Shown: positions 12,301 through 63,639 of the stretch, one piece after another
Layout: each line of letters begins with the position of its first letter
How positions within the stretch are numbered: position 1 is the stretch's first letter
DNA from: Tubiluchus corallicola
Taxonomy: Eukaryota > Priapulida > Priapulimorpha > Priapulimorphida > Tubiluchidae
Direction: 5' to 3'
NCBI GenBank assembly: GCA_030141605.1
Contig: JAQGDQ010000178.1
Location: 319,001-383,000, forward strand
DNA: 64,000 nt
Program-made: the position numbers and the translations under genes
Notes under the pieces: generated by a model
Seen by the model: the letters and a program-made list of their open reading frames with translations, nothing else
What the model was told of the DNA's origin: nothing
The model's database searches: none

Positions 12301-12481
12301 TTATGTATTCAAAGTTTTACTGAGCAACTTGGTATTGAAACTCACAGATCACATTTGTTCTTATTGTCTTTATACGTAACAAAAGGCACTTTATATAAAA
12401 TGTAGTTTTATCTAACCAAAATAATTTTATTAAATAATACATTGATGGTGTTAAATAAGAAAATAATTTAAAAAAACGTAT

Positions 12482-12720
12482 ATGCACCAACCAATCATGA
12501 CCACTATGATGATCATAATCATAATCATGATAATCATTAACACCACCACTACAATCATCGTCACCCTCATCGTCATCATCACCATCATCATCACCATCGT
12601 TATCATTATCTTTATCATCACTGCTGCTGCTGCCGCTACCATTGCTACCAACACCACTACAACCGACACCAGCACGGATGCTGCCGCCGCCAATGCTGAT
12701 GCTGATGATACGTTGTCACA
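12482..12720 (+). repeat. imperfect trinucleotide (CAT/CAC/GCT) tract
   Basis: About 240 bases of CAT, CAC, ATC and GCT triplets read open in several frames on both strands. This gives low-complexity translations of Thr, Ile, Ala and Val. It is a microsatellite cluster, not a gene. Confidence 0.85.
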
Positions 12721-32871: not shown

Positions 32872-35800
32872 CTATCTTGCATCCAGACAACCTAGAACGC
32901 TATGCAGATGCCGTGTAATACTTTCATGCAAATCTTTAATGATGCTCAACAATGTGAAAATGTTCTGCTTATCAGCCATTAAACATTTTTGCTCAGCTAG
33001 TGCATCTGCTAGAGTCTTGTACAAATGTGTGACATCTAAATAAACATCACTACATATGGGTGGAGAAACTGACTTCACATTCTCCACATATTTTATTAAC
33101 CAAGTGTAATAATCCTCACTCTGAAAATCTGGATTCTTTATGAAGTCATTTTGCATGTCAACCACTATATTACCACTTGATATAATGTCAGTTTCTGATA
33201 CAATGTCATTACTGGCAGCATCTAAAACAGTGTTCATTCTTTTGGTCCTCATAGATTCCATACTTTTTTTGGAACATGGTGTGCTATTTGGCAAATCTGA
33301 GCACGTAAATGCATCATTTTGATCTCCATTACGTTTGCTTGCTTGAGTAGCAGTGGAGAACGTAAGATTAGCCTGAACTTCAGCTACAGTTTGAACCTGG
33401 TGTTCATTTGCTTCTTTATTGTTCATCGACTTGTCCAAATTGTCATTGTCCAAAGGCACTATGGTTTCTGTTAGGATGTTTTTACAGTCCTCAGTTTGAA
33501 TAGCTTGAGTTGTACGAGACAAATTGTTGGAATCTGCTTCTGTCTCAGGTAACTTGATGATTGTTATTAATTCATCACCAGATGCACCTGTAGCCGTAGA
33601 TGTCTCGACTTCGAAGTTTTCTGATACCTGAACAAGAACTTGTTCACCCTGGCCACTGGTTACGTGCATCACTTCATCTGGTCTTTCACTGGTCAGTAAA
33701 GCTACAACTTCTCCTTCTGCCACCTGGTGTAACACGTTGGAAACACTCTCTGCTGACAACATGTTGCCATGTCGTGTTTTAGCTTCGGCATCTTTAAAAA
33801 CAAACTGCAATGCATTGTTCGCATCCTTGTAAATGGAAACATCATCGTGTGGGTGTTTTCGTAGCACATGAGACCGCAGAGCTTCTGCACGTTTGAACGA
33901 TTCCGAACAAAGTAAACAGCTATATTTTTTGAGAGAGTTGTGCTCTCGCACGTGGCGGTGACAACTGGATTGATCGGCAAATGAAACACCACACACTCCG
34001 CACACATACGGCTTAGATCCCGAATGCAGGATCAAATGACGGTTCAAGTCCGATTTCCGTTTAAAAGCTTTTGCACAGCGGTTGCAGGGAAACGGTTTAT
34101 AATCCATGTGCACACGCATGTGAGACTGCACTAGTTCTGGCCGTCTGAAAACTCTACTACAGATGCCACAAGAAAACTTACATCGTTTTGCATGTGAAAA
34201 CATGTGCCGTCTCATCGTGGACTCGCAATTAAATGTCTGACCGCACATTTCACACGAACGTTTGTCATTGTCAGTATGAATTTTCATGTGTTGGACAAAT
34301 CGAAAAGCAGTTTCGCACGCCTTGCCACATACAGTGCAGGTATAACAATCATTACCTGCATGTGCTAAGACATGCTGGTCTAATGTCAGTTTCCGTTTGA
34401 ACCTTTTTCCGCACACACTACACTTATATGGCTTTTTGTCAGAATGGACAACTCGATGCGACTTTAATCTGCGTGCACTTTTAAACTGCATCTTACATAC
34501 GTCACACATGTACAAATTACCTCCTGTGTCAGTGCTACCTGGGAATCGTTTAACATTGTTGCAATCTACGATGGTCAGGCTGCCGTCTTCGCCAAACAAG
34601 TACTTAGATGGCCGACCTACTCTTCTGTTTGCACACGAACTAGTACAAACAGAAATTGTAGGCTTTAAAAGTTTGTCATCTGGCAACATTATTGCATTTT
34701 CAGATGGGTAATGTTTGCGTGGACGACCTCGTTTTGTCTTCCCAAACTTTTTACTGTCGACAAAAGTACTTTTGTCGAGCCTTTCTGTTTTTTCCACCAA
34801 ATGCACTGATAGATTATTGTTTTCATTCTTAGGATCATCTGGTGCTTTGCCATATTTTTCTACGTGTTGGAATTTTTTGGTGCTACTTTTCACCGCTCCT
34901 CCATTTTCATTAATGACCAGCATAGCTGAGATATCTTTGTACTGACTGAAGCAACCACCTGTGCTGGCTGAATCCGTGTTACTTGACTCAAGGCTGATAC
35001 CTTCATTTTCATTTCCTTTTGCTTCATCTCCTTTACCTTCACCTGTTTGCAGAAAAATATGAGACTTTTTGACTTTCACATAAGCAGCTAGGCCAAGTAT
35101 TCTTTACTTAAACACAGTCATCAATGTTATCACAGTTAAAGACAGAAACAAAGGGATATAATTAGTTTAAAATGCAAACCTGCCTATTTGAATGCAATTC
35201 TTACCATGACCAATATCTCAAAGATCCCAAGCTGATCTGAAGTACCTTTAAACTTCATTTGTAAAACAAGCAACATGCTTATGTAAATGCTTCATGATAA
35301 CAAAAGAGATATGACAGAATAAACCTTAAAGCAAAACCGAATCCAATGTATGTCAAAACAATCTACTCTTTAAAATATTGAAAGGAAACATACTATTTTT
35401 TTCAAAAACGACTTACATGAAAGAATTATTACCACACAAACACAGTTTTTGCATTCACGTTCTTAACTGTTACATGCATTATGCAATTCGCTAGTTAGAT
35501 GGGCACTAGTGCCTGCATTTTGGAAATGCATTACACAAAAAAGGTGCTGTATTTCTCAGTTCAGATGTGTTAGTTTCTGATGAACTACACACATTTGACA
35601 GCTCACGCGTGAGGACAGCGGTAAATTTGAATTTGTGAATTTTTATCTTAAAACTTGCCCGTACAAAACACTGAATGTCTTACAGTAGCACTGTACTTCA
35701 ATTTTCGCTTTCGCAAACACGTGCAACACGCTCGTAGAACATTTTTGTTGTTGAAAATTATGTTAGTTTGTGATGTCATCAATAGTTGGGCTTGCCTGCC

Positions 35801-39616: not shown

Positions 39617-42600
39617 TCATTGACAAATGCACTTATTAGGTGGGCAGCACTCTGTGTTCTCCGACACTTCCCCAGGCTCTTCTTTTACCATATCAACAAA
39701 CTGGTGGCTGTCACTTTCCTGAAGATCAAACTTGTGAAAACTGTTGTTCGTCTCATTATCATTACCATCCTCTAGCTTTCTTCTAACGTGCTGAACGTAA
39801 CATATCGACTTTTTATAAGACTGAAAAAAGCAGAAATTTTTATTTTGGCTAATAAAATATCTAATAGTTTCAGGTAATCAGAAAATCAATGAAGAAAAAA
39901 GCAGTCAGGTGAAAATGATCAATAATGTGTAAAAAATTAATGATGGTAGATTTATAGTAGGTCACCCCACTCAAATTTACAGAGCTTTAAGTAATGCTAC
40001 AGTCACACAGTTCTTACAGTGTCTTATGCATTGCCACAGTCACACTGGCATGATAGAGTTCTTATAGCATCTTATGCATTGCCACGGTCACACTGGTGTG
40101 ATATAGTTCTTACAGTGTCTTATGCATTGCCACAGTCACACTGGCATGATATAGTTCTTACAGTGTCTTATGCATTGCCACGGTCACACTGGCATGATAT
40201 AGTTCTTACAGTGTCTTATGCATTGCCACAGTCACATTGGCATGATATAACTCTTACAGTGTTTTATGCATTGCCACGGTCACACTGGCATGATATAACT
40301 CTTACAGTGTTTTATGCATTGCCACGGTCACACTGGCATGATATAACTCTTACAGTGTTTTATGCATTGCCACAGTCACATTGGCATGATATAACTCTTA
40401 CAGTGTCTTATGCATTGCCACAGTCACACTGGCATGATATAGCTCTTACAGTGTCTTATGCATTGCCACAGTCACATTGGCATGATATAACTCTTACAGT
40501 GTTTTATGCATTGCCACGGTCACACTGGCATGATATAACTCTTACAGTGTCTTATGCATTGCCACAGTCACGCTGGCATGATATAGTTCTTACAGTGTCT
40601 TATGCATTGCCACAGTCACGCTGGTATGATATAGTTCTTACAGTGTCTTATGCACTGCCACAGTCATGCTGGTATGATATAGTTCTTACAGTGTCATATG
40701 CATTGCCACAATAATGCTGGCATGATATAGTTCTCACAGAGCCTTATGCACTGCTATGCTCACACTGGCATGATATCCTTTTTACAGTGCCTTATGCATT
40801 GCCACAGTCACAGTAGTATGACATAGTTCTTACAGTGCCTTATGCATTGCCACAGTCACACTAGTATGACATAGTTCTTACAGTGTCTTATGCATTGCCA
40901 CTATCATGCAGACATGATATAGTTTTGTACAATTGAGCTAAACAGTGGTACCAATGCACAGCATCAATGATGTAACTTACCCTTCACCTACTGCATTTAG
41001 GGTGCAAAAACTGCAAACTGCAAACACACCTCAAGTTTATTAATTGATAACATTTTGCTTTAAAGCTGACAGTAACTAAGCACTTCTCCCGTTTAATGTG
41101 TTGCCTACATATAGCTAAAGAGCTTTGTCTGATTTTTTGTGTATTAGTTGCGCTGATTACAATATTGATAAAAAATATTACAGTGGGTATGGCCTCACTA
41201 TGCTAGTAAAAAGAACGAATTGATACTCTTGATTGTTAAACAAACAATGTCTCTGTACTCAACGTTAGTAAGCTGTGCAACTAACTACATTATGAAAAAC
41301 AAACCCATTCAATATAGGCCTAGTGGGTCTAAATAGGATTCAACTAGGATACAGTGACGTGGCTTTTGCCAATTGTTTTTAATACAATGTATTTTTCCAG
41401 GGAAATGCCAAAACTCTTGCAAAATTTCAAACTAAAATATCGTATGGATAGTGCAAAGTATGAAAATGCAAATGTAGGAGTAAATGATGTTAGCAATTAA
41501 AAGGGTTCAATTTTACCTCTTCAACAGAATTCCACAGATCAGCAATATCATCCATCCAAATTTCACTCAGCTGACTTTTCTTCACTAAATCTATGATTTG
41601 CTCTCTTGTCAGCGTCATCACGCCCTCTTTAGTCGGCAGAGTGTTGTTCTTAATGTGTGTCGAGATCGCTTCCGCGCTCAATGCTATCAAGTGAGGCAGA
41701 GAGAGGATGCTTTTGCGAATATGGTCACTAAGCACATTTACATTAGTAAGAATGTAGTGAGGCATGTATCCTTGCTTACAACAATCACTGATATAACTCA
41801 GTATGCTTAACACCCGTTCAATGACTCTATCTGCTGCCCAAAACTCATCAGCAGCAAACTTCTGAGATTCATGAAGAAAAGCTGTTTTCAAGAGATATGA
41901 ATCGATTAATTTACCAGGTTGAAATTTTGTCACACAAAACAAGCTCACAATGTCGATGCGATACTTGTCTATCAGATGCTTCCTCACATACAATTTTTCG
42001 CCTTCCAAGTGCTCTTTAATATCTACGTCTGGACTAGCACAGTACAAATGTCCACTCATTAATGATTTCAGTAAAATCATCACCTGTTTCTTACAAACTG
42101 GCATCTCCTTTATTCTCTGACTTTCCATCACTGCCGCTGACATAGTCCAGATGGTTAAATCGGACACATCTGTGTATGGTTTACAGACAACATGGCAGGG
42201 AATTTCCGAACAAAGTGATTCTACTGATGCATCGGCTCCAAGTTTTTCCGGCATTTCCAATACAGGGGAAACATCCAGAGAAATACAGAGTGCTTTGTAA
42301 TGATTGCCATGATAGATAAACTTGAAAGTTGTGCAGACTTTGTTCCACTCTATATTAATTAAGCAAAGTGATTCCTCAAACTGTGATTCGTTAAGAGCGG
42401 CATCCATTGCCTTACATATCAACATAACAAACAAATCTTTTATTTCGATAGTGAGAAACTCTTTATCAAGAAACTCAGCATAGAGTTTTTGTTTATTTTC
42501 ATCACGCACATGCACCTTTACAAAACCGGATGGAAGGCCATCAACTAAGGTGCAGTCACATAAATTTTTCAACACAACGAAAAAATCAAACTCATCTGGC

Positions 42601-43358
42601 AGACCGCACTTAATGCCACATGAGCTACTGCCAACGAGAATAGGACTTGCATCAAATCTGACATCAGTTTCCCTCATCTTTCTGCAGACATGGTTTAACA
42701 GAGCCGTAATTCTTTCTAAAATGACTTCATTTTCTTCGGTACAAGGAAGACGACCAACTGAAGGAATCGTTACGATGTCTTCAATGCATTTACATTCTTT
42801 AATACCCCGACTTCGTTCTGACAAAAACAAATCTTTACTAGGTGAATAATCATCAAGCTTTCTTGTCACATATAAAGATCTTAACAAAAACCCAATCAGC
42901 TCTCTTAAACCTTTGTTGAACCCTGTGTTATTTGCCTGGTTAATAAAAATTTCTACAGCGGTTTTTCCGTCATCATTCTTTTTGGCAATATCAATACCAT
43001 GTTTCACTAACTCAAGTACAGTGCAGCGCTTCTCTTCAAATATGTCACTTTCAGCATTGTGTAAAACAGTAGCACTGTATTTGCAGGCAGCTTCATGTAA
43101 TGCTGTGTTGCCAACATCATTTACCGCTGTAACATCAGCACCATTATCTAATAGCACACCAAGGATTTTGGAATAACCACGAGCAGCAGCACAAATTAGT
43201 GCAGTATTTCCGCGCTTTTTGTCTTTGATTTCTGTATTGGCACCCTTTTCCAGAAGTTCCTTAACATCACAGATTCGATTTAGAAAAACAGCCCGATGGA
43301 GCTGTGTACAACCACTAGAATTCTTCTTATTAATGAAAAAGTTTTGAAAAGCGCTCAT
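39617..43358 (-). CDS. ankyrin-repeat plus Mab-21/cGAS-like nucleotidyltransferase
   Basis: Two coding exons on the minus strand, 681 residues: 43358-41517 (614 codons, donor GAAGAG|GTAAAA, phase 0) and 39820-39617 (acceptor TTTTTTCAG, 67 codons to TGA). Start MSAFQNFF is chosen because an acceptor (TTTATCCAG) lies three bases before its ATG; a farther in-frame ATG would be intronic. Residues ~15-145 hold about three ankyrin repeats (GNTALICAAARGYSKILGVL). Residues ~205-560 form a Mab-21 domain: nucleotidyltransferase motif GSSSCG...LPDEFDFF (acidic pair near 255/257), a third acidic residue in SLDVSPVLE (near 367), then SYLLKTAFLHE and MPHYILTNVN, typical of Mab-21. The apparent triad suggests an active cGAS-like receptor making a nucleotide second messenger; ankyrin repeats may sense or scaffold. 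No cGAS-type zinc ribbon was seen. The last exon has a SUMO-type VKEEP and a Cys-rich tail. Confidence 0.85.
39990..40925 (+). repeat. 48-bp minisatellite, about 19 units, in the ankyrin/Mab-21 intron
   Basis: The unit contains TCTTATGCATTGCCACAGTC, then ACTGGCATGATATAGTTCTT and ACAGTG. Identity is high in the middle and falls at the right end. Because 48 is a multiple of three and the unit lacks a stop in one frame, it reads as 231 codons of SYALPQSHWHDIVLTV; this is not a gene. It lies wholly within the intron 41516-39821. Confidence 0.95.
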
Positions 43359-43399
43359 AATCTGGATAAAAACAATTGAAACATCACTGAGCATAATGA

Positions 43400-46270
43400 C
43401 ATTAGTTCATATAGTCTCAAGCATAACTCCCTCAGGACCGCACCATTCAAAATAGGTTTTATAGGACCTGACTTCTCTGCTACTGTGCACTTGATTGGAT
43501 AAAATTAAGAAAAACATGCCCTATTCACACACTCCAACTTAGCCTATCGAGTACCTTAGTGTGGTATACATTTGCGTGATTGTATACACTGCTTTATTGA
43601 TCGCTTATTTGCGGCAGCCCAAGAGAGCAGTATGCTGTACAGAGTTCCAGGTAAACTTAACCGATCAGCCAGGAGAAATTAAGGTTGTATCTTCTTTTAA
43701 CAGAAATTTCTCCTTAAAAATAACGTAGACATGAGGCCAAAGTGTGTCAGAGTGTTGTGCATTTGCCAATTTCACACAAGTGATACCCTACATTGTTATA
43801 GTACAAAATCTGCAGCTAATGAAAGCTTTTCCAATTTTTTTGGAAAAAATAGATTTTTAATTTGTCTAAGGTAAGCAAATGTATTTCATATATAATTTTG
43901 CATGAAAATCCATTGTGCAAGGAGTAGGAATCTAAAAAATTATCAAATATAACATAATCGCTGCTAGTCAGAGCAGTTTTTTATGAACCTGTGCAAAATA
44001 CAGCAAATGCTTACAGTCCTGATGGAGATAAAGAGTCACGTTACTAATATTAAACATGTCAGGTATTAAACCATAGAACTTATAAGGAAACATTTACCAT
44101 ACTTGAGTTGAAAAAGAATCAAAACTGTTCAAGTGTACGATAGCGGGGCTAGAACGATACAACCAGGTCACGAAACGATACTAACATTACAATACGATAT
44201 ATGTCACGATACACCTGAGTTAGCATTTGGAAATTTTTACACTAAAAAACAGATGGAGCCGTTGATAATAAATGCTAAACTTATTTTACCATCTACAGTT
44301 TTAGGATAACTAAATGCTAAAATAACTCCACAAACTATTTGAATTTTTATCTAATATGTCAAGATACAATAATTTTATGTAATGTTTACTCAGTACATGG
44401 ACTATTGTAGACATTTCTTGTACAACGTACAGGCTAAGGCCGAAATACCAAACTCAAAAAATTCAACAGTTTTTGGAAGACCAAAATGTTCAAGGCTAAG
44501 TGACAGTTCTTTTGACATAATTTTGTTAGTTTTAATAGCTTTCATTTACATATTAGAATTTGGTGCCTACATGCTGACTTGGAGTTTACAGTAACAAAAA
44601 GTGACTTTAAATTAATGATTCAAAGCTGCAAAAGTGGATTATCTGTTAAGTTTCAAAGCAGCTGTAATATATTATTGTTGGAAGTTTGGGGTTGTTAATG
44701 TCAAATTTTCTAAGCAAGTTCCAAAGCCTTCATCAACAGTTACACCATTACTATTCATAGGCAGCTGCATGTCAGACCAGATGAACATTTATATGCAGCA
44801 AAGAAAATGGGCAAAACATGCATTTATTATTTAAAATAGTCAGATAGAAAAAATTGATCGGTCAAAACACTGTAGAAATTTGTTCAACAGTATGGCAACA
44901 AAGTTAAATCTGCAACAGAAGCAGTAAGAAAGCACTTTTAGCTGCTGAAAAATTGTGCTGTATTCAATAACTGTAATGTTTCTACTGTAACAATTTGCTG
45001 TAATGTTGTAATTGTATTATTATTACTGTTAATAAATATTTATTATGTCACACTTCATTCTTTTTAAAAAGCCCGCTCTTTGACTGAAACTGTTATCAAT
45101 GACTTTACGAAGCAATGTATCTAGACTAAGATACAAGCTGACATATTCTGCAATATTAGATGTTAATTTAACATGTCAATTGTGTGCAACAATCATGACT
45201 GGAATGGATGCAACTTACTGTCACACTAAACACGTTACATATCATTTATACAGTGTGTTCAAAAATAGGGATGCAGTACTGCATCTCATTTTTAAACACA
45301 TGTTCCTATTGATACATGGTGGCAGAATGATCTTACTCTCACACTCAAATCAAATCATTTAATTTTCATCCCAAAAATAATACATAGAAAAATAGGTATA
45401 AATTAAAAAAACAAATGGGAAGGAGTGGTGATGAACATTACTTATCGAATCAGCCACTCAAGACACTGATAGAGTACATGACAATGCTTAACAAATCTGC
45501 GCAAAATTTTGTTAATGCATCAAGTCGTAAAAAGGATGTTATGTTTAAAACACACAAGGGTCATATAAGACCACTGTCATTCAATCATTAGACGTGCAAG
45601 AATAAAAATTTTAACAGCATGCCAACAGCTACCTGGCCTGGATGTTTGAAACAGCAAGCGCTTGTCTACAGTACAAAATATAGAATACACAGAAATGCTG
45701 TTAATAATCGCAGATGATTGACAGCACCATCTCCACAAACTACAGCATCTGTATTTTGCTAACCATGCAGAATGCGGACGTGGAATGCATGTTACATCTA
45801 ACACTATATATAGCCTAGTACTTTAACTGCCTGTCATTTCAAAACTATTTAATTATTCGAAATGTGTTTTTTTAAATATATGCTTATAGTGCTATTAAAT
45901 GAGCACACTTGCAGCTGTGGTGGCGCACTCTATAATTTTTGTTCAACCACCCTAAGTTATAAAGTGCAAAGCCTAACATAACATTAACCCGTACCGTATT
46001 GAGATCTAAAGGATTAGACTTAAGTACTCTCACAACATGCACTCCTACACGCCAGACATTGTATTTTCATTTGATAACTGACAAACTTAATGTGCAATGA
46101 ATTCAACTATTCGTGAGACACTAATAAGTAATTCATACGCTTTGGTGAGGTCAATATTACAGCAAACTACCAATTCCGGGCAACTCGTGCTCAACTTCTA
46201 CAATATCAGAAATCTTTGAAATAAAATTTAGAACAAGGAATTTAGCTAAACCAAGGATCTAGAGTCTAGA
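43400..46270. other. intergenic, mostly unrecognised
   Basis: Upstream of the ankyrin/Mab-21 gene. Contains an ACGATAC-rich patch at about 44130-44215 similar in style to dispersed CGATA repeats, and several domain-free ORFs (44382, 44634, 45099). Its promoter should lie in the first few hundred bases. Confidence 0.4.
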
Positions 46271-46271
46271 C

Positions 46272-47357
46272 TTAAATATAATATAGGAAGTGTAACGAAA
46301 ATTTCTGCCTGTTACAAAAACAGCAGATAAGTATTGCTCCACCACTTAAGAATCTAACCTGTGTTGGTTTTGCCAAAGTTTTATTAGGGACAGTTTTATT
46401 AAGAGAACATACCGATTCTTGTACGTTGCTTAAAACTTGTCCCTGTTTAAGTAATGAATCTGCAAACAGCTGCAATGTATGGGGAGTCATGTCTGAGGGG
46501 TCTTCATGAAGTTCTTCATGAAATTAGATCAACTTCCATAGGTTCTGAATTATCTGGAAAGCACGATCTAAGATATTGGCACATCTCCACGGGAGCTCCC
46601 CTGTTAGCGGCTTCTGTGATTGCCAAAGTTAGAGTTCGGGGGGCTCTCTGAGTAAGTATTGACGCGCCTGGTCCCCTCGTATACCCAGTGTAAATAATTG
46701 TACCAAAAATGATTGAAAGGCTGGGTTTACAATTTCATCTTCTGACGTTTTTGCTATTCTTGCTAATTTGAGTATCCTGTCGCCAAAAGCCTGTATGGTC
46801 TCCCCCTTCTGTTGCCTAGCTCGAGTTAATCCAATGAAAGCCTTATTGATTTCTAGTCGGTCTGCGTATAGGTCTCTTAGGGCGTTTCGTAATTCGTGTG
46901 CTGTTCTCGTCTCAAGATTTGGGTATTTACTCACAAAGTTTGCGGCTGCCCCTGTAATAGTGCCCAAAATCAAATGCTTGTAGGCGGTGTCCCTTGATGT
47001 CAATAATGTAGGGGTTAAGTTTAGAGACTGCTCTATATTATCAATCCAATCTCTATATTTGAGAGTGCAGGGTTCTCCTGAAAATTTCGGTAAGTGTTGA
47101 ATTTGGCGAATTAATGTTTGTTGTACTTTAGTGTCTTTTAGATGAGTGCCCAATTCATATAAAAATTGGGTCTGATCACTAGCCCGTTTCAAATCACCTA
47201 TTTTTTCTCCTTGTTTTAAAATCTGAGCAGCTTGGGTTTGTAAGATTTTATCACTATTCTCGCATCTTTGACTCAACTCATGAAATTGATTTGCTAAAGC
47301 ATTATAGGTATCAATACACACATGCTGAGCTTCAGGTGCTGGAGATTTAGTCGCCAT
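46272..47357 (-). pseudogene. decayed LTR-retrotransposon gag
   Basis: The minus-strand frame 47357-46629 (242 codons) has a coiled-coil-like N-terminus and a retrotransposon capsid-type region: LPKFSGEP...KYRDWIDNIEQ and FIGLTRARQQKGETIQAFGDRI. The frame breaks near 46645, continues in another frame (TLTLAITEAANRGAPVEMC), then stops again. A third piece (46490-46350) resembles a gag tail. No protease, reverse transcriptase or integrase follows, so the copy is truncated and inactive. Ty3-like or BEL-like lineage cannot be told from gag alone. Part of an ancient mobile element, not a host gene. Confidence 0.7.
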
Positions 47358-48190
47358 TGAGAAAGTTTAATAGAGGTTAAATTTAAGAAGTCTATTTGCG
47401 CTGCGCAATTTACAGTGCATTATAGAATTAATCTTTACAACCCTCCAATATCTTGATATTCAAGTTAGTGTTACAACCCTCCAAAATGTTTGATATACAA
47501 GTTAGAGTTTATCTACAACCCTCCTTGACTTTAGAATACAAGCAACCGTTATCTCTTACACTCACTGACACAACCAGGAAAGGTACATAAGTAAAATATT
47601 AGGGTGGAGAAAGAACGTGCATGTACTCGCGACAAATTTGTAGACGTCAAGATGTGTGGCAGATCAATTACAGCTTTATTCATGTCTGCTTGGATTAGCG
47701 TTGTTTGTGAAAACGCAATGAAGCCAGGTTACTAGAATCTCTCTCTGTGTAGAATAAATCGGAACTAGTCACAAGTACCAGTAAAATTTATGAGTGATGT
47801 TTATGAGCTGTGTCGTATAGTGGTAGTACTTGTTGGTGGATTATTGAGGAGGCCGCAGCCATTTATTGATGTGAGGTGGTGACAAAGCTATAAGATCTGG
47901 ATTGATGAGCGACTAACACATTTATTTCACAATAATATATTACATGGTAAAATACATATCATAGCTCTGCCAAACCGCCCATGACCTGTTCTTGCTTCTT
48001 CGAGATCCCCACGTGATCTGACCGTCTCATTCCACTTGGCTTCCTTCAGCTTTTTGGACTCACAGTGCATGCGTTATAATTGTTGCCAGTCTGACAGTTC
48101 AGACGAGCAATGTCCATATTTGGAACTCTCAGCAGATCTAGTCACATGACAGCCGCACCTAAAATCATGGCTTCATTTCTACATATCTCT
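47358..48190 (-). other. leader and possible 5' LTR of the gag element
   Basis: Upstream of gag on the minus strand lie three repeats of GGAGGGTTGTA at 47450-47535. Farther up, a stretch with a polyadenylation-type GAAATAAATG near 47925 could be LTR. No second LTR copy exists in the window to prove it, and no clear primer-binding site was identified. Confidence 0.25.
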
Positions 48191-51177: not shown

Positions 51178-54100
51178 AGATACTGTCGATGAATGTATAA
51201 TACTGTAAACTAAATTTATCTGGACAATCATATTTTTTGTCTTCTTACTGTGTCATTGTAGCCTCTTATCTTGATTAGGAATAATCATCAAATGTTCAAG
51301 TTATCATGCTTATAATCGTTCAACTGTTAAAGCTATGCTTTGTCTTTACAATTCGACCAGTCAACCTTACATGCAATGCAGCAGTCATTACTGTGTGTTA
51401 CCTTATTGCAAGCAATTTTTTAATCTGAGTTAGATTCAAACCTAAAATTGTAGATTAGTATAGTTCGGCAATTCAACTACAAGAGTTCTCTATTATTAAA
51501 ACGCCTGAAACATGGTACAATCAGTATGATTTCTGCTCACAATTTTTAAACAAATATGTGTTTTTCTGCAGAACTAAATCAAGGGATATGCTTGTTCTTC
51601 ATGAGGCTTGTCTTTTATTAATGATTTGAAAATTTGTTTGAAAATTTTAAAAAATAATATCGATTCAGATTCCAAATCTTGAAAATTTTGCTTGGTTAGA
51701 GTTCTAAGGTCAAAAGTTCGATTACATTTGAATTCGCTTTCTGATAGAGAATGCTCACCGCAAATTTAGATTGGCCGATGACTTTGTTCTGGTCACATTT
51801 GTATAAAAAAATAAGTGGAAATGATGTAATGATTTCGTTTTACCAGAAGTTTTTTATTTGAAAATAGATAGAAAAAATCTTGATACACTAACATAGCAAA
51901 AGACATGCAGTTACGAGGTGATGTTTTCCCTACTGAAGCTAAGTAAGAATAAATTTACAAGTTTGTGCATTTAAAATTTTGCTCAATGACTTACATAGTA
52001 TAAGACTCATGGGCATTAGCTACAAACATACATTATAATAATTCATTATACAGTTGTGAAAAATTTACACATTAAATAATTTCAGCATAAAAACAAAACA
52101 AACTCCTTGCATCACACAATGTGGTCAAATTGTTTGAATGATGTTAGGTATTCATTAACTAATAATGTTTCTTGTCTTTGCTTCTGTTAAATACCAAGGA
52201 ATGCCTTTCGCTTTAAAGCAGTTGTACTTGGTTCTTCGGCGAGAGAACTTGGTGTATGATCTGAAACTAGCTTATCTCTCCTTAATGCAGCTGCTCTTTG
52301 CCGTTTAACTGTGCGAGCCTGAACTAACTTATCTCGCCTTAATGCAGCTGCTCTTTGCTTGCTTTCTTCAGCCATTTTACAACTTCGTAAAATGTCCTCT
52401 AGGCACTCTGTCTCTGTGGATTTTTTAATCTCTCTCAGGTGTGTGTTTTCATAGATGTCTTTTGCTCTAGTTATGAGTTTAACTGTGTAATCAACTACCT
52501 CATAGTCATTGGCTCTTTCACCCAAGTTTTTTACAGCCATATGAAATGCTCTCATGACGATCATTCGAAACATATTCAGCAGGTAAATTGCCGCAGAAAA
52601 ATTGAAACTGAAGAAAAATGCAGGTCCAAACAGAGAGTGCGCATTTTCATAATTTTCAAATCTGCCGCCACTCAGTAACATGCCCACTAGTGATGCCATA
52701 GATATTAAAAACGTATTGAGCTCATAGAGAATGTAGCTAAACACAAGCATGCCAAACAATGCAAACAGCAACCGTACTAATGACAAAATAATCGTGTAGT
52801 TAAATAGGGCATCTACAGAAAAAGCAATTGTATCCGGAAAGAGAAACATCATCTTATTAAATGACAGTATCTTCCACAGTTTGATAGTTACCAAGACGAC
52901 CAGAAAACCCAGAACATACGTTAGTGTAAAATCCCAAAATGCAGCTGTGTAAAAACTCAAGAATTTTGATTGTTCTGCCCGCTTGTTTTCTTCTAACAAA
53001 TTGTCAGTGAGTTTTGCCTTTTTCACAAACAGGATGAATCCCGTTAGGGAAAGGACAATAATGCTAAACTCGACACAATTCCAGGTCTTTTTAAAATAGC
53101 TGAACTTCAGTTTGTTAAGTTGTTTTCCTTCTCTATAGATAAACACTCCAAGTAGGACAAGGTAAAAAAGTTTGCTTAATATTATTGTCCCATCTACTGC
53201 ACTTGCAAATGTAACCAGGTTCAAAGTAAAAATCTGATAAAATGGAAAAATGCCGCCGGTATTACTAAATTCCAAAATCATTAGCACAATGCTGAACAAG
53301 TTTGTGTTGGAGTTGAATAGAGTCATCTCGATCATCATGGCTCGAGTGCGATCATCAATCCAACGCGAATCAATCAATGAATCAATAATCAATTCATTCT
53401 GTGAGCGATTGCGAGTCAATTCCATCACATAGCCACCACCACTGTAGAAAGCTAAATGTCCTGTAATAAAAAATGTAAATTCAGAGGACTTATTACAATG
53501 CAAAACAACTAACTTTATGCCAGTGTACAGAAAACTTTGTATACCAGTGTAGAGTAAGTTTTGCCAATTATCAGTACTAGTAATGAACACACATCGACAA
53601 ACTGATGAATGCAGACCAACTACTACAAGCACTCGTACAGCGGATTAACCAAAATTCAGCTGACCACAATGTTCCACTAATTAAGCGCTCAGTTGTAAAT
53701 CAACATGATCGTGATTGCTTAATATAATAAGAGTAACATTTTGTATGTTTCGTCATTAATATCTGCCGTTTAATTACTCAGGGCAAAAAACCTGCAATGG
53801 CATGTAGAGGTAAAACAACATAAGAGCTTAATGTTCTGAAGTCATACTGATGCAACACAACCAAATATTACGTTCGCATTTTAAGAGAATTATAAGCCTG
53901 TGCGTTTGAGAATCTAGCAAGAAGAAGTTACAACAGAAACTTTTGAGTGAGTAAACAGGAGAACTGATTGTACCATTAAGTTTAGTAAATCAATGATGTG
54001 ACATCCCTCCATTTTAATTAACCTCTTCAATCCTGTATTCCAGCTGGTGCTCTGGAATATTTTATAGAAAATGAAAAGTTGCTGCTGCTTCTGTCACTGC

Positions 54101-54770
54101 TGTGTTATCGTGCTGCTGTTTCCCACCCTACAGCCACTGCCACCGCTGTCACGAACTACTGCTTTTTTGTAAAATATGTAAGCCCAGTGATTCATATTCA
54201 AATTGTGTCATTTATCAACCACACAATGTTGAACCAGCCACATCATATTATATGCACGAACTGGCTTGACCTATTATCTACTGTTGCCTGATGACATGAC
54301 TAAAAATCTGGCAAGATAGTTTCTAATTTGTTCTACACTGTTCTATTTCTGAGCCATTTGAATAGACAAACATTGATAAAAAGCAGAAAACAGCTTCACA
54401 GAAGGCAGCAGTCACAATTTAGGCAGACGATACAGCAATAACAGCAATCTTTTTTGCAAGTTTATCCAACTGAGTAAACAGAAGAAATGATCATTGCAGC
54501 ATTAAATTTATTGGATAAAAGATGGCTGCTATTTCAAGCTTCAGCTAATGATAACTTTTGCAGGTACCTGCATAAGGTAGTGTTCGCAATTCCAATGTTG
54601 AGCGAAATGTCCAGTGGTCAGTAGGAAAAGAAGGAAATTGACGTTCACGCCATCCAGGCGAATACGGGGCAATATCCTCCCAGGGCCAAGAATAAGCAGA
54701 GACACACTTCCTTCCAAATGGTTCCATAAGATGATGTATTGAACACAAACCTAAAATGTTAAAAAAACAG
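51178..54770 (-). repeat. 3.6-kb tandem duplication, distal unit
   Basis: Begins on the plus strand at GATACTGTCGATGAATGTAT and ends near 54770 (TTAAAAAAACAGGCA). It is adjacent to and highly similar (by eye over 90%) to 54783-58350. Contains one copy of the last two polycystin exons and the intron between them. Small indels separate the copies, for example about 40 bases absent from one near 52000-52080 against 55610. Confidence 0.9.
52187..54750 (-). CDS. polycystin-1-like gene: second (distal) channel cassette
   Basis: Copy of the two terminal exons, 54750-54568 (183 bases) and 53460-52187 (423 codons and stop). The first enters in phase 1 and carries the TOP-domain end (YSPGW...WTFRSTLEL); the second reads AGHLAFYSGGGYVMEL across the splice and holds all channel-domain helices. 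Both are open, with intact splice sites (TTTTAG, AG|GTACCT, TTACAG). Splicing from exon 58641-58476 straight to 54750 would keep phase, skipping the proximal pair. It lacks its own upstream exons or start, so alone it is not a complete gene. Differences from the proximal copy sit in the pore-proximal part (LVRLLFALFG versus LVLLPFALFG; SLVGMLLSGGRFENYE versus SLMDMLLSGGKFYNYE) and in the basic C-tail, which has one repeat fewer. Confidence 0.8.
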
Positions 54771-54782
54771 GCATATTTATTA

Positions 54783-57700
54783 TTATACTGTCGATGAATG
54801 TATAATACTGTAAATTTAATTACACAAATTAAATTTATCTGGACAATCATATTTTTTGTCTTCTTACTGTCTCATTGCAGCCTCTTATCTTGATTAGGCA
54901 TGATCATCAAATGTTCAAGTTATCATGCTCATATTCATTCAACTGTTAAAGCTATGCTTTATCTTTACAATGCGACCAGTGAACCTTACATGGAATGCAG
55001 CAGGCATTACTGTGTTACCTAATTGCAAACAATTTTTTAATCTGAGTTAGATTCAAACCTAAAATTGTAGAGTCGTATAATTTGGCAATTAAACAACAAG
55101 CGTTCTCTATTATTATAACGTCTGAGACATGGTGCAATCAGCATGATTTCTGCGCACAATTTTTAAACAAAAATGTGTTTTTCTGCAGAACTAAATCAAG
55201 GGATATGCTTGTTCTTAATGAGGCTGTCTTTTATTAATGATTTGAAAATTTGTTTGATTATTTTTAAAAATAATTTCGATTCAGATTCCAAATCTTGAAA
55301 ATTTGTTTGATTAGAGTTCTAAAGTTAAAAGTTCGATTAGATTTGAGTTTGCTTTCTGATAGAGAATGCTTACCACAAATTTAGATTGGCCAATGACTTT
55401 GTTCTGGTCACATTTGTATAAAAAAATAAGTGGAAATGATGTAATGATTTCGTTTTACCAGAAGTTTTTTATTTGAAAATAGAAGGAAAAAAATCTTGAT
55501 ACACTAACATAGCAACAGACATGCAGTTACGAGGTGATGTTTTCCCTACTGAAGCTAAGTAAGAATAAATTTACAAGTTTGTGCACTTTAAATTTTGCTC
55601 AATGACTTACATCACACAATGTGGTCAAATTGTTTGAATGATGTTACGTATTCATTACCTAATAATGTTTCTTGTCTTTGCTTCTGTTAAATACCAAGAA
55701 ATGCCTTTCGCTTTAAAGCAGATGTACTTGGTTCTTTGGCGAGAGAACTTGGCGTATGATCTGAAACTAACTCATCCTGTTTTAAAGCAGCTGCTCTTTG
55801 CCGTTTAACTGTGCGAGCCTGAACTAACTTATCTCGCCTTAATGCAGCTGCTCTTTGCCGTCTAACTGTGCGAGAACTTCGCTTGCTTTCTTCAGCCATT
55901 TTACAACTTCGTAAAATGTCCTCTAGGCACTCCGCCTCTGTGGATTTTTTAATCTCTCTCAGGTCTGTGTTTTCATAGATGTCTTTTGCTCTAGTTATGA
56001 GTTTAACTGTGTGGTCAAGTACCTCATAGTCATTGGCTCTTTCATCCAAGTTTTTTACAGCCATATGAAATGCTCTCATGATGATCATTCGAAACATATT
56101 CAGCAGGTAAATTGCTGCGGAAAAATTGAAAATGAAGAAAAATGCAGGTCCAAACAGAGAGTGCGCATTTTCATAATTATAAAACTTGCCTCCACTCAGT
56201 AACATGTCCATCAGTGATCCCATAGATATTAAAAACGTATTGAACTCGTAGAGAATGTAGCTAAACACAAGCATGCCAAACAATGCAAACGGCAACAGTA
56301 CTAATAACAAAATAATCGTGTAGTTAAATAGGGCATCTACAGAAAAAGCAATTGTATCCGGAAAGAGAAACATCATCTTATTAAATGACAGTATCTTCCA
56401 CAGTTTGATAGTTACCAAGACGACCAGAAAACCCAAAACATACGTTAGTGTAAAATCCCAAAATGCAGCTGTGTAAAAACTCAAGAATTTTGATTGTTCT
56501 GCCCGCTTGTTTTCTTCTAACAAATTGTCAGTGAGTTTTGCCTTTTTCACAAACAGGATGAATCCCGTTAGGGAAAGGACAATAATGCTAAACTCGACAC
56601 AATTCCAGGTCTTTTTAAAATAGCTGAACTTCAGTTTGTTAAGTTGTTTTCCTTCTCTATAGATAAACACTCCAAGTAGCACAAGGTAAAAAATTTGGCT
56701 TGATATTATTGTTCCATCTACTGCACTTGCAAATGTAACCAGGTTCAAAGTAAAAATCTGATACAATGGAAAAATGCCGCCGGTATTACTAAATTCCAAA
56801 ATCATTAGCACAATGCTGAACAAGTTTGTGTTGGAATTGAATAGAGTCATCTCGATCATCACGGCTCGAGTGCGATCATCAATCCAACGCGAATCAATCA
56901 ATGAATCTATAATCAATTCATTCTGTGAGCGATTGCGAGTCAATTCCATCACATAGCCACCACCGCTGTAGAAAGCTAAATGTCCTGTAATAAAAAATGT
57001 AAATTCAGAGGACTTATTACAATGCAAAACAACTAACTTTATGCCAGTGTACAGAAAACTTTGTATACCAGTGTAGAGTAAGTTTTACCAATTATCAGTA
57101 CTAGTAATGAACACACATCGACAAACTGATGAATGCAGACCAACTACTACAAGCGCTCATACAGCGGATTAACCAAAATTCAGCCGACCACAACGTTCCA
57201 CTAATTAAGCGCTCAGTTATAAATCAAAATGATCGTGATTGCTTAATATAATAAGAGTAACATTTTGTATGTTTCGTCATTAATATCTGCCGTTTAATTA
57301 CTCAGGGCAAAAAACCTGCAATGCCATGTAGAGGTAAAACAACATAAGAGCTTAATGTTCTAAAGTCACTCAACACAACCAAATATTACGTTCGCATTTT
57401 AAGAGAATTATAAGCCTGTGACTGGGGTAGTCACATAAACATTAACAATGGCATTGTTCGTTTGAGAAACTAGCAAGAAGAAGCCGTGTGCACGAGTGCT
57501 ATGTTTTTACAACAGAAACTTTTGAGTGAGTAAACAGGAGAACTGGTTGCACCATTAAGTTTAGTAGATCAATGACGTGATGTCCCTCCATTTTAATTAA
57601 CCTCTTTATTGCTGTATTCCAGCTGATGCTCTGGAATATTTTATAGAAAATGAAAAGTTGCTGCTGCTTCTGTCACTGCTGTGTTATCGTGCTGCTGTTT

Positions 57701-58350
57701 CCCACCCTACAGCCACTGCCACCGCTGTCACGAACTACTGCTTTTTTGTAAAATATGTAAGCCCAGTGATTCATATTCAAATTGTGTCATTTATCAACCA
57801 CACAATGTTGAACCAGCCACATCATATTATATGCACGAACTGGCTTGACCTATTATCTACTGTTGCCTGATGACATGACTAAAAATCTGGCAAGATAGTT
57901 TCTAATTTGTTCTACACTGTTCTATTTCTGAGCCATTTGAATAGACAAACATTGATAAAAAGCAGAAAAAAGCTACACAGAAGGCAGCAGTCACAATTTA
58001 GGCAGACGATACAGCAATAACAGCAATCTTTTTTGCAACTTTATCCAACTGAGTAAACAGAAGAAATGATCATTGCAGCATTAAATTCATTGGATAAAAG
58101 ATGGCTGCTATTTCAAGCTTCAGCTAAATATAACTTTCGCAAGTACCTGCATAAGGTAATGTCCGCAATTCCAATGTTGAGCGAAATGTCCAGTGGTCAG
58201 TAGGAAAAGAAGGAAACTGACGTTCACGCCATCCTGGCGAATACGGGGCGATATCCTCCCAGGGCCAAGAATAAGCAGAGACACACTTCCTTCCAAATGG
58301 TTCCATAAGATGATGTATTGAACACAAACCTAAAATGTTAAAAAAACAGG
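54783..58350 (-). repeat. 3.6-kb tandem duplication, proximal unit
   Basis: Starts at TACTGTCGATGAATGTATAA directly after the distal unit and ends near 58350. Holds the first copy of the last two polycystin exons. Contains a 61-base insertion (57424-57484) absent from the distal unit. Confidence 0.9.
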
Positions 58351-61300
58351 CAGTGCAAGTCAATGGAATGCATGGAAGTCACCAAGACAAACTTTTCAAA
58401 TCACACAGAGAATTTATCAAGCCCTGAACAGTACAAAGCTGTGCCTAGCTTCCACCTAGTTTTGACATTACCAACCTGGCTTTATGCGTAATTGTCTCAG
58501 TCTCACAACACCAACTAACATCGTAGTCATATCTGCAGCATATCCGTATGGTGCCTCTTCTCCATTGTACAGTGTATCTGGATGTAAGCTAGGTTGCAAA
58601 GTGTTCCGGATGTAATCCCACATGGAACTCACAGTTGATATCTATAAACAAAAGAGTATGACGGTGTGATATACAAACCAAAACGAAACTAAAGTTTATT
58701 TGAATCAAAGAAGAGCTCTCAACAAGAAAACAACAACAATCAAACAAAATTACAAACTGCTTTTTGTAATTTTTTGACCAATTTGAGCTTAATAACTTAT
58801 GACTGGTACCTAAATAATTATTATTATTAATTATAATAATTATTAACAATTTATACTGCCATAAACCATATGACAGGTTGAATGTTGAAGCAAATTCCTC
58901 TCACTTTACCTTGCAGCATAGGAGAAATTAGGTACAACATTCAATCTGTCACAGAAAAAGTTGCATTTGCAGGAATAGGTTTACATATTGTCTCAATGTA
59001 TAAGGATAGAAACAAACACGGAAAATTATCGCCAAAATCATAGCAAAACTATTAGGCATTTTTTAAAAGAAATGTACTTGCCAAGAAAAAGTTATACTTA
59101 TAAACTGCTAATTAAAAACGCATATATTGTCAACTGAAACAATATTTCAGATGGCATAGGAAAACATAAATAAATATTGTTCTGCAGTAAGGTTTTTACT
59201 GCCAGCGATGTCACTCGCAGGGACTCACATCTCATCCTGGAGGTTAGCAGAACCAGGAGAGAAATCGATTAGCACACAAATTCACGAAAGAGAAAGTTTG
59301 GCTCAAACCAGCAGAAGTAGGAGAGGCATGGATTCACACACAAATTCACAAAAGAGAAAAGTTTGCCTCAAACTAGCAGAAGCAGGAGAGGCATGGATTC
59401 ACACACAAATTCACAAAAGAGAAACTTTGGCTCAACTAGCAGAATCAGGAGAGGCACTCGCTAAACTTAGTTAACCAGTTAAATCACATGCAAATTCACA
59501 ACAATTAGTCCAAGATTGTTTTTAAAAAGACAGGAAGACCGCATTTCGGCTGAACGGGCATCTCGCTAACACAAAACACGAAGAAGTTACCCTTGAAAGG
59601 TTACTGGACTGTCATATGAATGCCTAAAACAAATGAACTCTAAAACCTTTGATGATCTGGACAGACTTATGCTGTTTTGTGTTCAACTAGCAACTACCAT
59701 ACTCAAGGATTCAACTGTAGCACATGTATTTATCAACTTTGTAGTTTTAGACAGGCAAGAATTCGAATTTGACCAATCACAGAGTTCAGGATATGTGAAT
59801 TACAAGTAGGTAGGTTAAGGGGCCTTAAATTAGAAAGGGTGATTTATTTTGTTGTAGTACTAAAGTAACCTACAGAACAGTCACTGTAGCATTGATCACG
59901 AAGGTAGAGGGACTAGAAAAGAGATGTCAAATGCAGATTGGCCGAAACACCTCCCTCCAACATTTATTTATGTAAAAGCTTAATGAAAGATACCTACATC
60001 GGTAAAGTTCGTACTTCTCACATAAGATGCATTGATGACTACATCCTCTACAGTTCTAGTCACCATGTACGACCTAGAAAATGTAAAAGTACAGTGAATC
60101 CTCGCTTTATGCCCCCCAAATTAGCGACGTTTCATTTTAACAATACTAAACATTTGAATGACTTAACAACTCTTGTTTCATTTTAACGACAACTTTTTTA
60201 CTTTGCTCACATCCATTTTTTACCTTATCAACAACATTACTACCTAATTTATAGCAATACAACGGTACACATTGCATTATTATGTTCTAAAAATGCACTA
60301 ATAATAGAAAACAGAACAATTATTGTTATTATGTCTTTGCTTTGCGACTGACTGCTAAATGCTAGCCATATGTATAAAACGTTTTTTAACATTTTATTAC
60401 AAAGTTTTAATAAAAGTTGAATCTGTTAAGTTTTTTGGTATTTCAAAGTATTGGTCTTCTCATATGCCAATAAAACTTCAAAGAAGCCTATGAAATGTAT
60501 TATCAAAAGACTGTTTGTCATAAACTGCTTAAAGAAGTGTATGACTTGTGAAGGGTCAGTTTAAATCACAATTACAAAATAACTTCCAAAAGAAGTTGTA
60601 TCGTGTTTTATGAAACACCGTTCAACACATTTTTATTTTTGTGAACAGATTAAACCTTCATATTAGGCAGGTGTAATTAAAAAAAGTTTAAAAACGACAC
60701 TACATCTGTTGCATCTCTATTATCATAAAGGCCAAGTAGGGGTACTTTGCCAGAATTATTTACCCACCTTGCATCACGGAAATTATAGACAATAACAGAC
60801 AAACTTGCTATGAAACATAGGAAGAGAATAATCTCTTTAAGAATCGCATTAATTTCGTTGGTGTAATTCTTATTCTCCCGTGCAACCACTACAAACTTTT
60901 TATCAGGAGGCATGTACATGTAATGCTTTTGTCTGTATCTCGAGTTCCTATGCAAAAAATATGTTTGAATTAGGCTAATTAACAAAACCATTATAATCTA
61001 GTCTGTTACCAAAAATGGGGGACTGACTGGACATAGCTGCCAAACTTTCAAGAAGGCCTGATTCTTAGCCCTTTCTTACAGCATTTTGGACATGGACAGT
61101 TTTATAAAATTTCGCATTTTGGCCCGCTGTCCCGGGACACTAAAAAGTAAAAAAATGATCCTGCACTTTGGAGGTTTATAACTCCAAAACGTTCACAGAT
61201 AGACACTTGGTTGCTATTAGGGACGAATAGGAGCTTACATGTGAGCTGTTCTTTAGTAATATTATTAGTGTTTTGGAACACACAAAGTGGCCAGATTACA

Positions 61301-63639
61301 TCATCAATGCCCTTGAATCCATTTCACAAAATCAATAGTCCGGTCTGTTACCCAAAAAACGAGCTCTTAGCTTCGTACTAGATGACAAAATGCTATATAT
61401 TAGGTATGTTGCATGAATAGTGGCTCACAGATAATTAACTACATTGACATTCCAGAAGTTTAAACATGGGCACTCTCACTCATGTTTAACACGGGATGGA
61501 CAGGAACGATTAAGACAACGCCGGCCCTAACTCTAATTCAGCACACCTCAAAAATATAAAGAAAAATACCATGATGGAAAAACTACTCATTGGAAAACTT
61601 TGTCCCGGAGGTCAATCTGCTCCCGGATCGGGGAATGAGCCCCAGCCATGGCAGGGATGACAGGCAAGTTTTACAATAAATACAAATTATACAATTTTGT
61701 TAAACTAAACTGCAGTGCTTACATAAATATGATACTGCCCAAGTTTGAAATGAAAATAGCTTTACAAACCTTTTATAAGCATCAAGCCATTCTTTTTGCA
61801 GATAAGTATTTAAATTCAATAGTGATGTGTCAAAATGTCTTTCCTCAACCTCAACTGATGGCTTTTTGAAAATAAGTGCCGTTAAAGCAGCAACAACAAG
61901 AACTTTACCAGGTTGAAGTACAAAAATACTTTGAAATATCCCAGTTATCATAGAGATCAGCCAGTCTACACTTTTCCTGTATCCGTACTTCAGACCATAG
62001 AGCATAACCAGGTATGAACAGATAAGACAGGTGCTAATTACAAGAAACCATCCAATGTATAAACACCACCAGGGGAGTTGAAATGTTCTCTGGGGCTTTG
62101 GCTGAAGTTCAGAACGAGCTTTTCCCACATCTTGATAACTTATATGTGAAAAACTTTTCATCATTGAAGCAAATTGTTTAGAATTGACTTCCGAATTTTT
62201 CAGGTTACTCGCACAGTCTTTTATGCTTGTTACCTAAATTATACCAACAAATATTTGAATAAATTACACCAATCTCCCATTTTCTGGAAACAGATAGTAA
62301 CTCCACTTCACCTAGCTTTAAAAAAAACGATAAATGCCAAGAAGCAACGGTTTAATTCTTACAGTACCTAGTTGACTTTTTGGCTGGGCCGTATTGTGTT
62401 TTTCACATTTCACAATAGCTTTTTGTTGTGTGTTACTAAAACAGAATCTTGTAAATAAACAAATAGTCATATTAATCAAATAGTGTTAATAAACACTAAT
62501 ATTGAATATGAGTTTTATTTGTATGCGCGCACACACATACGTGCACATCTGCATGCACTCAAGAACCTTGACAAATAAGCAAGGTTATATTTAGAAACCA
62601 ATTTTCACAGCAGTCATAATATTAATCCATGTTATGTGATCATTTTATATGAAATGCAGAACAAGCTGCTAAACATACGTTTCACCATGCCTGGTGAATG
62701 TTACTTGTTGCAAAGCCATTGGAATCCCAAGGCTGTTAAACATTTCTACATGTTTTTGCACGGCTGTAGCAGCAAAATAAACAGACCTGAGTGACTGCGC
62801 TTAGAGCTGAGCTGAGCTTTGGCAGCAGTCTACTGCCTTCCGTCCCTTATACGAAAAATATAGGCAGCAGTGTGCCACCTTCTGTAGTGAAAGGGTTAAC
62901 GAAGTACCTTTAAATGTGAAATGAATACCCACTAAAAGGTATCTCATTAATTTGTAAAAATAAATAAATAAATATTTAAAGTAATTTTCAAATTGCAGAC
63001 TTGCTAGGTCGCATTTGCAAATAGCGTACTGCACATGTTGCTTGTTTTCAAAAAGCGGGAAATGCTAGCTTCCCTCATGCGCTCAAGCGAGACAGGGTTG
63101 TCAAACGCCGCAGATATGCAGCATTGCAAACATTTCCGATCTGTCGTGATTAACCCTCTAAAGGGTTGAACAGCCTAGCCATTAACCTGGTGCATGATTG
63201 CAAAGCGTGTTGTGATTGGCTGAAATGGATGCTTCTGTGGAGTTAGCCAGTGCCCGATTTACAGGGGACATAGAGGGCAATTGCCCCGGTGGTAACATGC
63301 AAAAACTTGTATGTGGTGTGGTTAAATTGCGTTTGCTCTCGCTTTTATTGAGGTGCGATATATAAACGTATCTGCTAGGTTGCTAGTTAGGTACCGACTA
63401 CGTTGGCATCTCAGGTCAGACGGCTAGTTTTGATAATGAACTAAATTCCAGATCTAGTGCAAGTGCAAAACTGTAAAAAATCTTAATTAACCATTTTCGT
63501 TGGTTTTTAATCATACGCAAAAGGTCATCGCAAGTTTACCTGCATCACATACTTCAGTCCAAACATTTTTTCTAGGAACGTCTCTTCTTTCTGTTTAAAT
63601 ATGCGCCTATACGTTCTAACGATTGTCCTTATAATATCG
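55687..63639 (-). CDS. polycystin-1-like (PKD1/PKD1L family) channel protein, 3' half
   Basis: Six in-phase minus-strand exons: 63639-63540, 62233-61770, 60947-60764, 58641-58476, 58329-58147 and 56984-55687. All phases match (2, 0, 2, 0, 1, 1). The order is typical of polycystin-1-type proteins: LPWWCLYIGWFLVISTCLIC with a long transmembrane region ending QPGKVLVVAALTALIFKKP; next helix ILFLCFIASLSVIVYNFRDA; TOP domain with RLRQLRIKPG, a CxxxYSxxxEDxxPYSPGW segment and FYSGGGYVMEL; then the channel domain from TRAVMIEMTLFNSNTNLFSI through FKKTWNCVEF, the pore region and SFNFSAAIYLLNM-type last helix. It should be a membrane cation-channel subunit or receptor partner of a polycystin-2. REJ/GAIN/PLAT parts would lie beyond the right edge. 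The C-tail carries tandem QRAAALRRDKLV repeats. The 63.6-kb exon is the least certain. Confidence 0.85.
58865..58970. repeat. short foldback
   Basis: GACAGGTTGAATGTTG at about 58872 and CAACATTCAATCTGTC at about 58937 are complementary with one mismatch, across a ~50-base loop. Lies in a polycystin intron. Possibly a tiny MITE. Confidence 0.5.
59225..59460 (+). repeat. ~65-bp tandem repeat, about 3.5 units
   Basis: Units carry AATTCACAAAAGAGAAA, CTAGCAGAAGCAGGAGAGGC and ATGGATTCACACAC. The frame at 59208-59474 is open because of the unit and is not a gene. Lies in the polycystin intron 58642-60763. Confidence 0.85.
60092..60372 (-). mobile_element. Tc1/mariner-pogo-type MITE, half copy 3
   Basis: Begins CAGTGAATCCTCGCTTTATG after a TA and follows the complement of the right half of 5831-6491 (CGTTTCATTTTAA, AAAATGCAcTAaTA, GACTGACTGC words) for about 280 bases. 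Left half missing. Lies in a polycystin intron. Confidence 0.75.
60948..61769. other. polycystin intron
   Basis: Between the exons 61770-62233 and 60764-60947. Two related stretches begin TAGTCTGTTACCAAAAA (about 60999) and GTCCGGTCTGTTACCCAAAA (about 61338), suggesting a diverged repeat. No exon seen. Confidence 0.5.
62234..63539. other. polycystin intron with GC-richer flank
   Basis: Holds a (CA)n-like patch near 62525 and no convincing exon. The intron would run from the donor CAG|GTAAAC at 63539 to the acceptor TTTAG at 62238-62234. Confidence 0.45.

Follow-up and report, generated by a model that had tools for sequence, protein, structure and literature searches.

Two tandem channel-domain cassettes at the 3' end of a polycystin gene in Tubiluchus corallicola

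The 64,000-nucleotide stretch of Tubiluchus corallicola DNA analyzed here (hereafter the window; contig C2157 positions 319001-383000, from an assembly of 343.5 Mb in 2344 contigs) contains a polycystin gene on the minus strand, reading toward low coordinates, that ends in two complete 3' cassettes, a proximal copy A followed by a distal copy B. The duplicated arrangement is absent from the other version of the locus in the same assembly, where contig C1409 possesses one cassette (hereafter C). On balance, we lean toward a recent partial 3' tandem duplication on one version of the locus, with A as the working end of the gene and B as a copy that is decaying or rarely used; the duplication appears young and is probably haplotype-specific. 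A two-way channel switch, in which the gene would alternate between the two modules, is only formally possible and is not favored.

The joined exon model places upstream exons of the gene at 62233-61770, 60947-60768, and 60073-59998 (span 59998..62233, minus strand) and the final shared exon ahead of the cassettes at 58476..58641 (minus strand, donor phase 1). Both terminal exons match the Pfam families Polycystin_dom (PF20519) and PKD_channel (PF08016) far over the cut-off, with E-values of 2.5e-22 and 1.2e-36, respectively, for copy A and of 1.4e-21 and 2e-35 for copy B, and both match the PDB sequences of polycystin-2, PKD2L1, PKD1L3, and polycystin-1. On the minus strand ~10 kb upstream of the exon at 58476-58641, a PLAT domain (PF01477) match is sub-threshold (L012; 22.6 bits, cut-off 23), and a REJ domain (PF02010) match, likewise on the strand of the polycystin gene but ~40 kb upstream, reaches 25.2 bits (L027; cut-off 25), with the C1409 counterpart of the latter region scoring 32.5 bits against the same cut-off of 25. 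Based on these PLAT (sub-threshold) and REJ matches upstream on the same strand, the gene probably belongs to the polycystin-1 class. As in that class (PKD1, PKD1L3, PKDREJ), the cassette contains a polycystin domain and a PKD channel, and the PLAT and REJ matches would be a further, putative resemblance if they belonged to the same transcript; unlike in that class, one version of the locus has the last two exons doubled, and a coding repeat of variable number is present in the C-tail.

Self-comparison of the window identified three pairs of direct repeats, 51207-51996/54826-55612 (93.2%), 52106-53902/55606-57420 (95.1%), and 53928-54773/57507-58352 (97.3%), and therefore a unit of ~3.6 kb is present twice, head to tail, which bears out the proposal of an earlier note on this DNA that such a unit, with the last two exons, occurs twice in direct order. 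Based on self-comparison and comparison with C, copy A extends over 54785..58352 and copy B over 51180..54773 (both minus strand), and between the end of B and the start of A lies an 11-base, AT-rich filler (54774..54784) absent from both flanks of C. In copy A, exon 2 is located at 58147..58329 (183 nt, phase 1-1) and the terminal exon at 55687..56984, encoding the end of the TOP domain, the channel domain, and the C-tail (431 aa after a split codon), while in copy B exon 2 is located at 54568..54750 (183 nt) and the terminal exon at 52187..53460 (423 aa), all on the minus strand. All junctions are AG/GT, and the joined models of A and B are open from the exon at 62233 to the stop without a frame break; the exon models thus uphold the further suggestion that both copies are open and share an entry phase. 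The two cassettes consist of adjacent homologous exons with equal phases, as in tandem duplicated exon substitutions. An AATAAA is present in each copy on the minus strand, at 55468..55473 in A (213 nt past the stop) and at 51853..51858 in B (328 nt past the stop); of the poly(A) sites that had been anticipated near 55.6 and 52.1 kb, the signals were found, though the two anticipated positions fall between the signals and the stops.

Substitutions separate A from B at 48 of 1274 aligned positions in the terminal exon (3.8%), 30 of 1101 in the intron (2.7%), and 51 of 872 in the 3' flank (5.9%). All five differences in the 183 nt of exon 2 are synonymous, and the same five set A apart from C, such that the protein encoded by exon 2 is identical between A and B over 60 whole codons. 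The terminal-exon proteins differ by 26 replacements among 423 aligned residues and, within the C-tail repeat, by a gap of 8 residues; this alignment confirms the expectation that the modules have different pore-region residues and C-tails; 12 of the 27.5 non-synonymous nucleotide changes between A and B fall within a 95-codon stretch covering S5, the pore, and S6. Copy A scores higher than copy B against Pfam Ion_trans (35.1 and 27.0 bits, respectively) and against all 20 PDB polycystin sequences matched by both.

Synteny of contig C1409 (221 kb) with C2157, scored on matches >300 nt and >85% only, extends over C2157 from 369.5 to at least 421.5 kb, past which the matches are weaker. Outside the cassettes, the two contigs are ~90–97% identical, with insertions up to several kb. 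Its single cassette C is present with both flanks and consists of an exon at 16848-16666 and an open terminal exon at 15558-14213 (447 aa). The earlier note had set a single copy against its own reading, and in this respect the assembly goes half of the way, with one cassette on C1409 and two on C2157. The assembly contains two near copies of the upstream exon at 61770-62233 (C2157, 100%; C1409, 98%), the next matches being paralogs at 86% and 81%, and it follows that there are two gene bodies, yet three different cassettes. C1409 is most likely the other haplotype of the C2157 locus, though it could possibly be a segmental duplication of at least 50 kb. Substitutions between the window and C1409 amount to 3.2% in the left flank, 5.7% in the right flank, and 3.7–3.8% in three upstream stretches and, as these five stretches cover a range of 3.2 to 5.7%, the distance between A and B is approximately the distance between the contigs. 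Compared to C, the body of A differs by 2.7% and the body of B by 1.45% without a gap (35 of 2413 positions), while the 3' flanks differ by 1.6% for A and 6.0% for B.

The region around the cassettes includes several other differences and repeats. C1409 has one further copy of 263 nt from the 3' flank of the unit (12228-12490), which covers most of a dispersed repeat; within the window, a dispersed repeat at 51416-51760, inside the 3' flank of the unit, takes 36 of 42 matches, on other contigs at 70–78% identity. An intronic minisatellite with a 65-nt unit at 59229-59456 is longer in C1409 (17576-18329). Two neighboring genes were compared with the assembly to ask whether the second contig is the other haplotype. 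An Ank-Mab21 gene (41490-43406) has a second copy at 97% on C478, with homology ending at window position 45803 (12 kb compared), and a zinc-finger gene neighboring the locus (33300-35103) is single in the assembly. Based on the end of the Ank-Mab21 homology and the single zinc-finger gene, either the assembly would be only partly haplotype-separated or the C478 copy of the Ank-Mab21 gene would be a duplication. C478 and C1409 both lose their homology to the window in repeat-rich DNA between 45803 and 50508, representing a structural difference or a misjoin, and a frame within this interval (46629-47366), without a Pfam match, presumably resembles gag.

The relationships among A, B, and C form a mosaic. 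A is the C-like copy in the 3' flank, where 43 sites are B-unique and 6 are A-unique, and B is the C-like copy across the intron and exon 2, with 31 A-unique and 4 B-unique sites; exon 3 is mixed (20 A-unique, 16 B-unique, and 6 C-unique sites). The C-like stretch extends from ~52.2 to ~55.6 kb, about one unit long, and crosses the junction because the body of B and the 3' flank of A adjoin there, while the flanks are at ordinary distance. Copy B switches from C-unlike to C-like near 52222-52270, in the C-tail repeat (52222..52360, minus strand), for which the repeat number differs in A, B, and C, and the switch in A is at roughly the corresponding place. The window is free of N, as is the adjoining 30 kb to its right. 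As the C-like parts meet at the junction, together with the 11-base filler, the arrangement suggests a real tandem duplication derived from a C-like haplotype and, based on the mosaic, the absence of the filler from the flanks of C, and the lack of N, a real molecule is favored over an artificial juxtaposition of two haplotypes.

A possible route begins with a break through which the end of a cassette, located 23 nt before the exon-2 acceptor, would have been joined to sequence past the poly(A) region, with the 11-base filler added at that join. The new unit, closest to haplotype C, probably reached a diverged haplotype by copying or recombination, and we infer that an exchange near the C-tail repeat would carry the C-like tandem to the other haplotype and give the mosaic. 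The origin of C as a deletion derivative of the window haplotype, through recombination between A and B, was considered and rejected because such a deletion predicts B-like sequence at low coordinates and A-like sequence elsewhere, opposite to the pattern in the mosaic.

That two haplotypes of one cassette were set side by side in C2157 through a fault of assembly is improbable, though several observations point in this direction: the A-B distance approximates the distance between the contigs, the assembly keeps the second version of the locus on a separate contig, and C1409 itself opens (L009, 1-3559) with a 1.6-kb palindrome of 99% identity that is likely a contig-end artefact. Heterotype false duplications (PMC9516828) similarly have copies that differ by about the haplotype distance; here, unlike in those cases, the junction is free of an assembly gap and a third cassette, distinct from A and B, exists. 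Further, the three distinct cassettes stand against two near-identical copies of the upstream exon, a haplotype count that a pooled sample would weaken, the 35 gapless substitutions between the body of B and C indicate that the two are not simply the same molecule with errors, and the filler at the junction is missing from the flanks of C. Judged on the sequence, a fault appears less likely than a real duplication.

Coding changes were assigned by three-way parsimony, excluding the part of the C-tail repeat for which there is no gapless alignment, and the non-synonymous to synonymous counts (N:S) were 10N:17S in A, 14N:5S in B, and 3N:4S in C. The counts for A and B differ over both exons (Fisher p 0.019), and for the terminal exon alone they are 10N:12S and 14N:5S (p 0.11). 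Compared to the neutral ratio, A is constrained (p 5e-6), while B is indistinguishable from neutral (p 0.41); exon 2 of B has zero B-unique changes and encodes the same protein as A and C. Using three paralogous exons as outgroups (one from C110 with 91% protein identity and two in C1862 with 77%), which polarize codons 1-328, the firmly derived changes are 1N:5S in A and 8N:1S in B (p 0.011), with mixed-outgroup sites (10 in A, 4 in B) and sites at which the odd state was ancestral (3 in A, 1 in B) set aside. Seven replacements private to B (V41M, S94L, L229R, P231L, F247L, H324Y, and D340H) affect residues that A, C, and all three paralogous exons share, and over codons 1-367 such shared positions account for 7 of 13 private replacements in B and 1 of 8 (position 350) in A (p 0.085). 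Two of these seven lie in S5; based on alignment to polycystin-2, we place positions 226-247 in S5 and 284-301 in S6. At other B-private residues, 97 and 322 match the C1862 exons and 73 matches C110.

Between C2157 and C1409, the upstream exons differ at 13 N and 6 S codons, a ratio indistinguishable from that of B (p 1.0), and the N:S of B may therefore be ordinary for the locus. The private changes of B are more frequent in exon 3 (16 of 1100 positions) than in the intron and exon 2 (4 of 1290; p 0.003), an excess that is not predicted by simple neutral decay and that could be the result of conversion from other polycystin exons or of selection. In the pore of A, D259 and I301 agree with all three paralogous exons and M258 agrees with one, and K266 and Y268 recur in decayed sequence near 88.9 kb of C1409. 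The interpretation of the pore differences as a specialization of A was rejected, as several of its pore residues have the paralog-like state.

The duplicated unit starts 23 nt before the exon-2 acceptor, such that B keeps the pyrimidine tract without the rest of the upstream intron. Both A and C have a branch-point motif, TTGAC, at -31 that is missing ahead of B, though this loss is weak evidence because the motif occurs by chance at 47% of random positions and the modeled exon at 58641 is likewise without one. To be used, B must lie in a transcript that passes the AATAAA of A at 55473 and skips at least the terminal exon of A. The proposal that one gene body could splice to either copy is in keeping with the in-frame joining of both from the 58.5-kb exon, while the single cassette on C1409 and the lack of a synonymous excess in B speak against it.

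The full form of that proposal, in which transcripts end in A or read through to B and one gene provides two channel modules, is doubtful. It can draw on two open copies with the same phase, the same splice signals, and separate AATAAA signals, on the concentration of non-synonymous changes in the S5-pore-S6 stretch, on the unchanged protein of exon 2, and on the enrichment of substitute tandem duplicated exons in ion channels that is described in PMC9741552. The same paper reports that 77 of 236 human tandem duplicated exon substitutions swap the C-terminus and that most functional human cases are ancient and have predominantly conservative substitutions. The cassettes resemble such substitutions in being homologous, equal-phase tandem exons in an ion channel gene; unlike them, the duplication here is young and missing from the other contig, one terminal exon is without visible constraint and has private changes at shared positions, and use of both exons is putative. 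The A-B divergence, at about the level of the divergence between the contigs, likewise counts against two established modules. Less likely still is a newborn alternative end, whereby a segregating duplication would give a polycystin-1-class gene two terminal channel modules and the distal one would be diverging fast in S5, the pore, and S6, perhaps due to selection or conversion from the many polycystin paralogs; if true, a single species would offer a view of how a duplication becomes an isoform switch. Under the favored reading of a working A and a decaying or rarely used B, A, which keeps the native intron, would serve as the usual end of the mRNA, while B, past the poly(A) signals of A and without the native upstream intron, would be losing constraint, although the open state of both B exons, with AG and GT intact, counts against decay.

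Partial tandem duplications of terminal exons are raw material for alternative C-termini. An ion channel gene with a young duplication of this kind, and with the unduplicated version in the same assembly, offers a view of the starting state and of the divergence of the copies before their use settles. It also provides a warning that copies with different pore residues need not be specialized, as the A-B differences are about as large as the differences between the contigs of the locus. Among the titles listed in literature searches, none concerned this polycystin locus, and absence from print is not claimed.

The polycystin expansion in the assembly is large, with 60 matches to the terminal exon of copy A, six of them close, and 29 further matches of >300 residues at 36–46% identity on 25 contigs, some of which may be haplotype pairs. 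Five of these 29 (C1882, C2172, C1930, C198, and C1923) are in open frames of 2437–2748 aa, as if intronless. A paralog at 3444-4870 of L033 (C110:240501-250000) has a terminal exon and ~330 nt of intron that are ~95% identical to the polycystin locus, while exon 2 (~85%) and an upstream exon (86%) are less so and, based on this difference, conversion between paralogs is likely. The homologous block at L033 ends next to a pair of 66-nt inverted repeats, spaced ~2.4 kb apart, that may represent a transposon. Polycystin terminal exons in a decayed, fragmentary state are present at about 88500-89150 on C1409 and at 7054-7199 of L033, one with stops, and their occurrence suggests that polycystin terminal exons have been repeatedly born and lost.

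Elsewhere in the window, direct repeats of ~709 nt (4429-5137 and 7257-7962) with 99% identity, 2.8 kb apart, are possibly long terminal repeats. Segments of a cadherin gene form an inverted pair with 87% identity (1920-2877 and 11087-10121), and a similar frame is present at 4129-6066 of L032. A 48-nt tandem repeat of ~19 units extends over 40009-40931, with one frame mostly open (39995-40714). An open frame at 22598-23293, without a Pfam match, possesses repeated NGPPxLGF-like units and dibasic sites, and presumably resembles a neuropeptide precursor.
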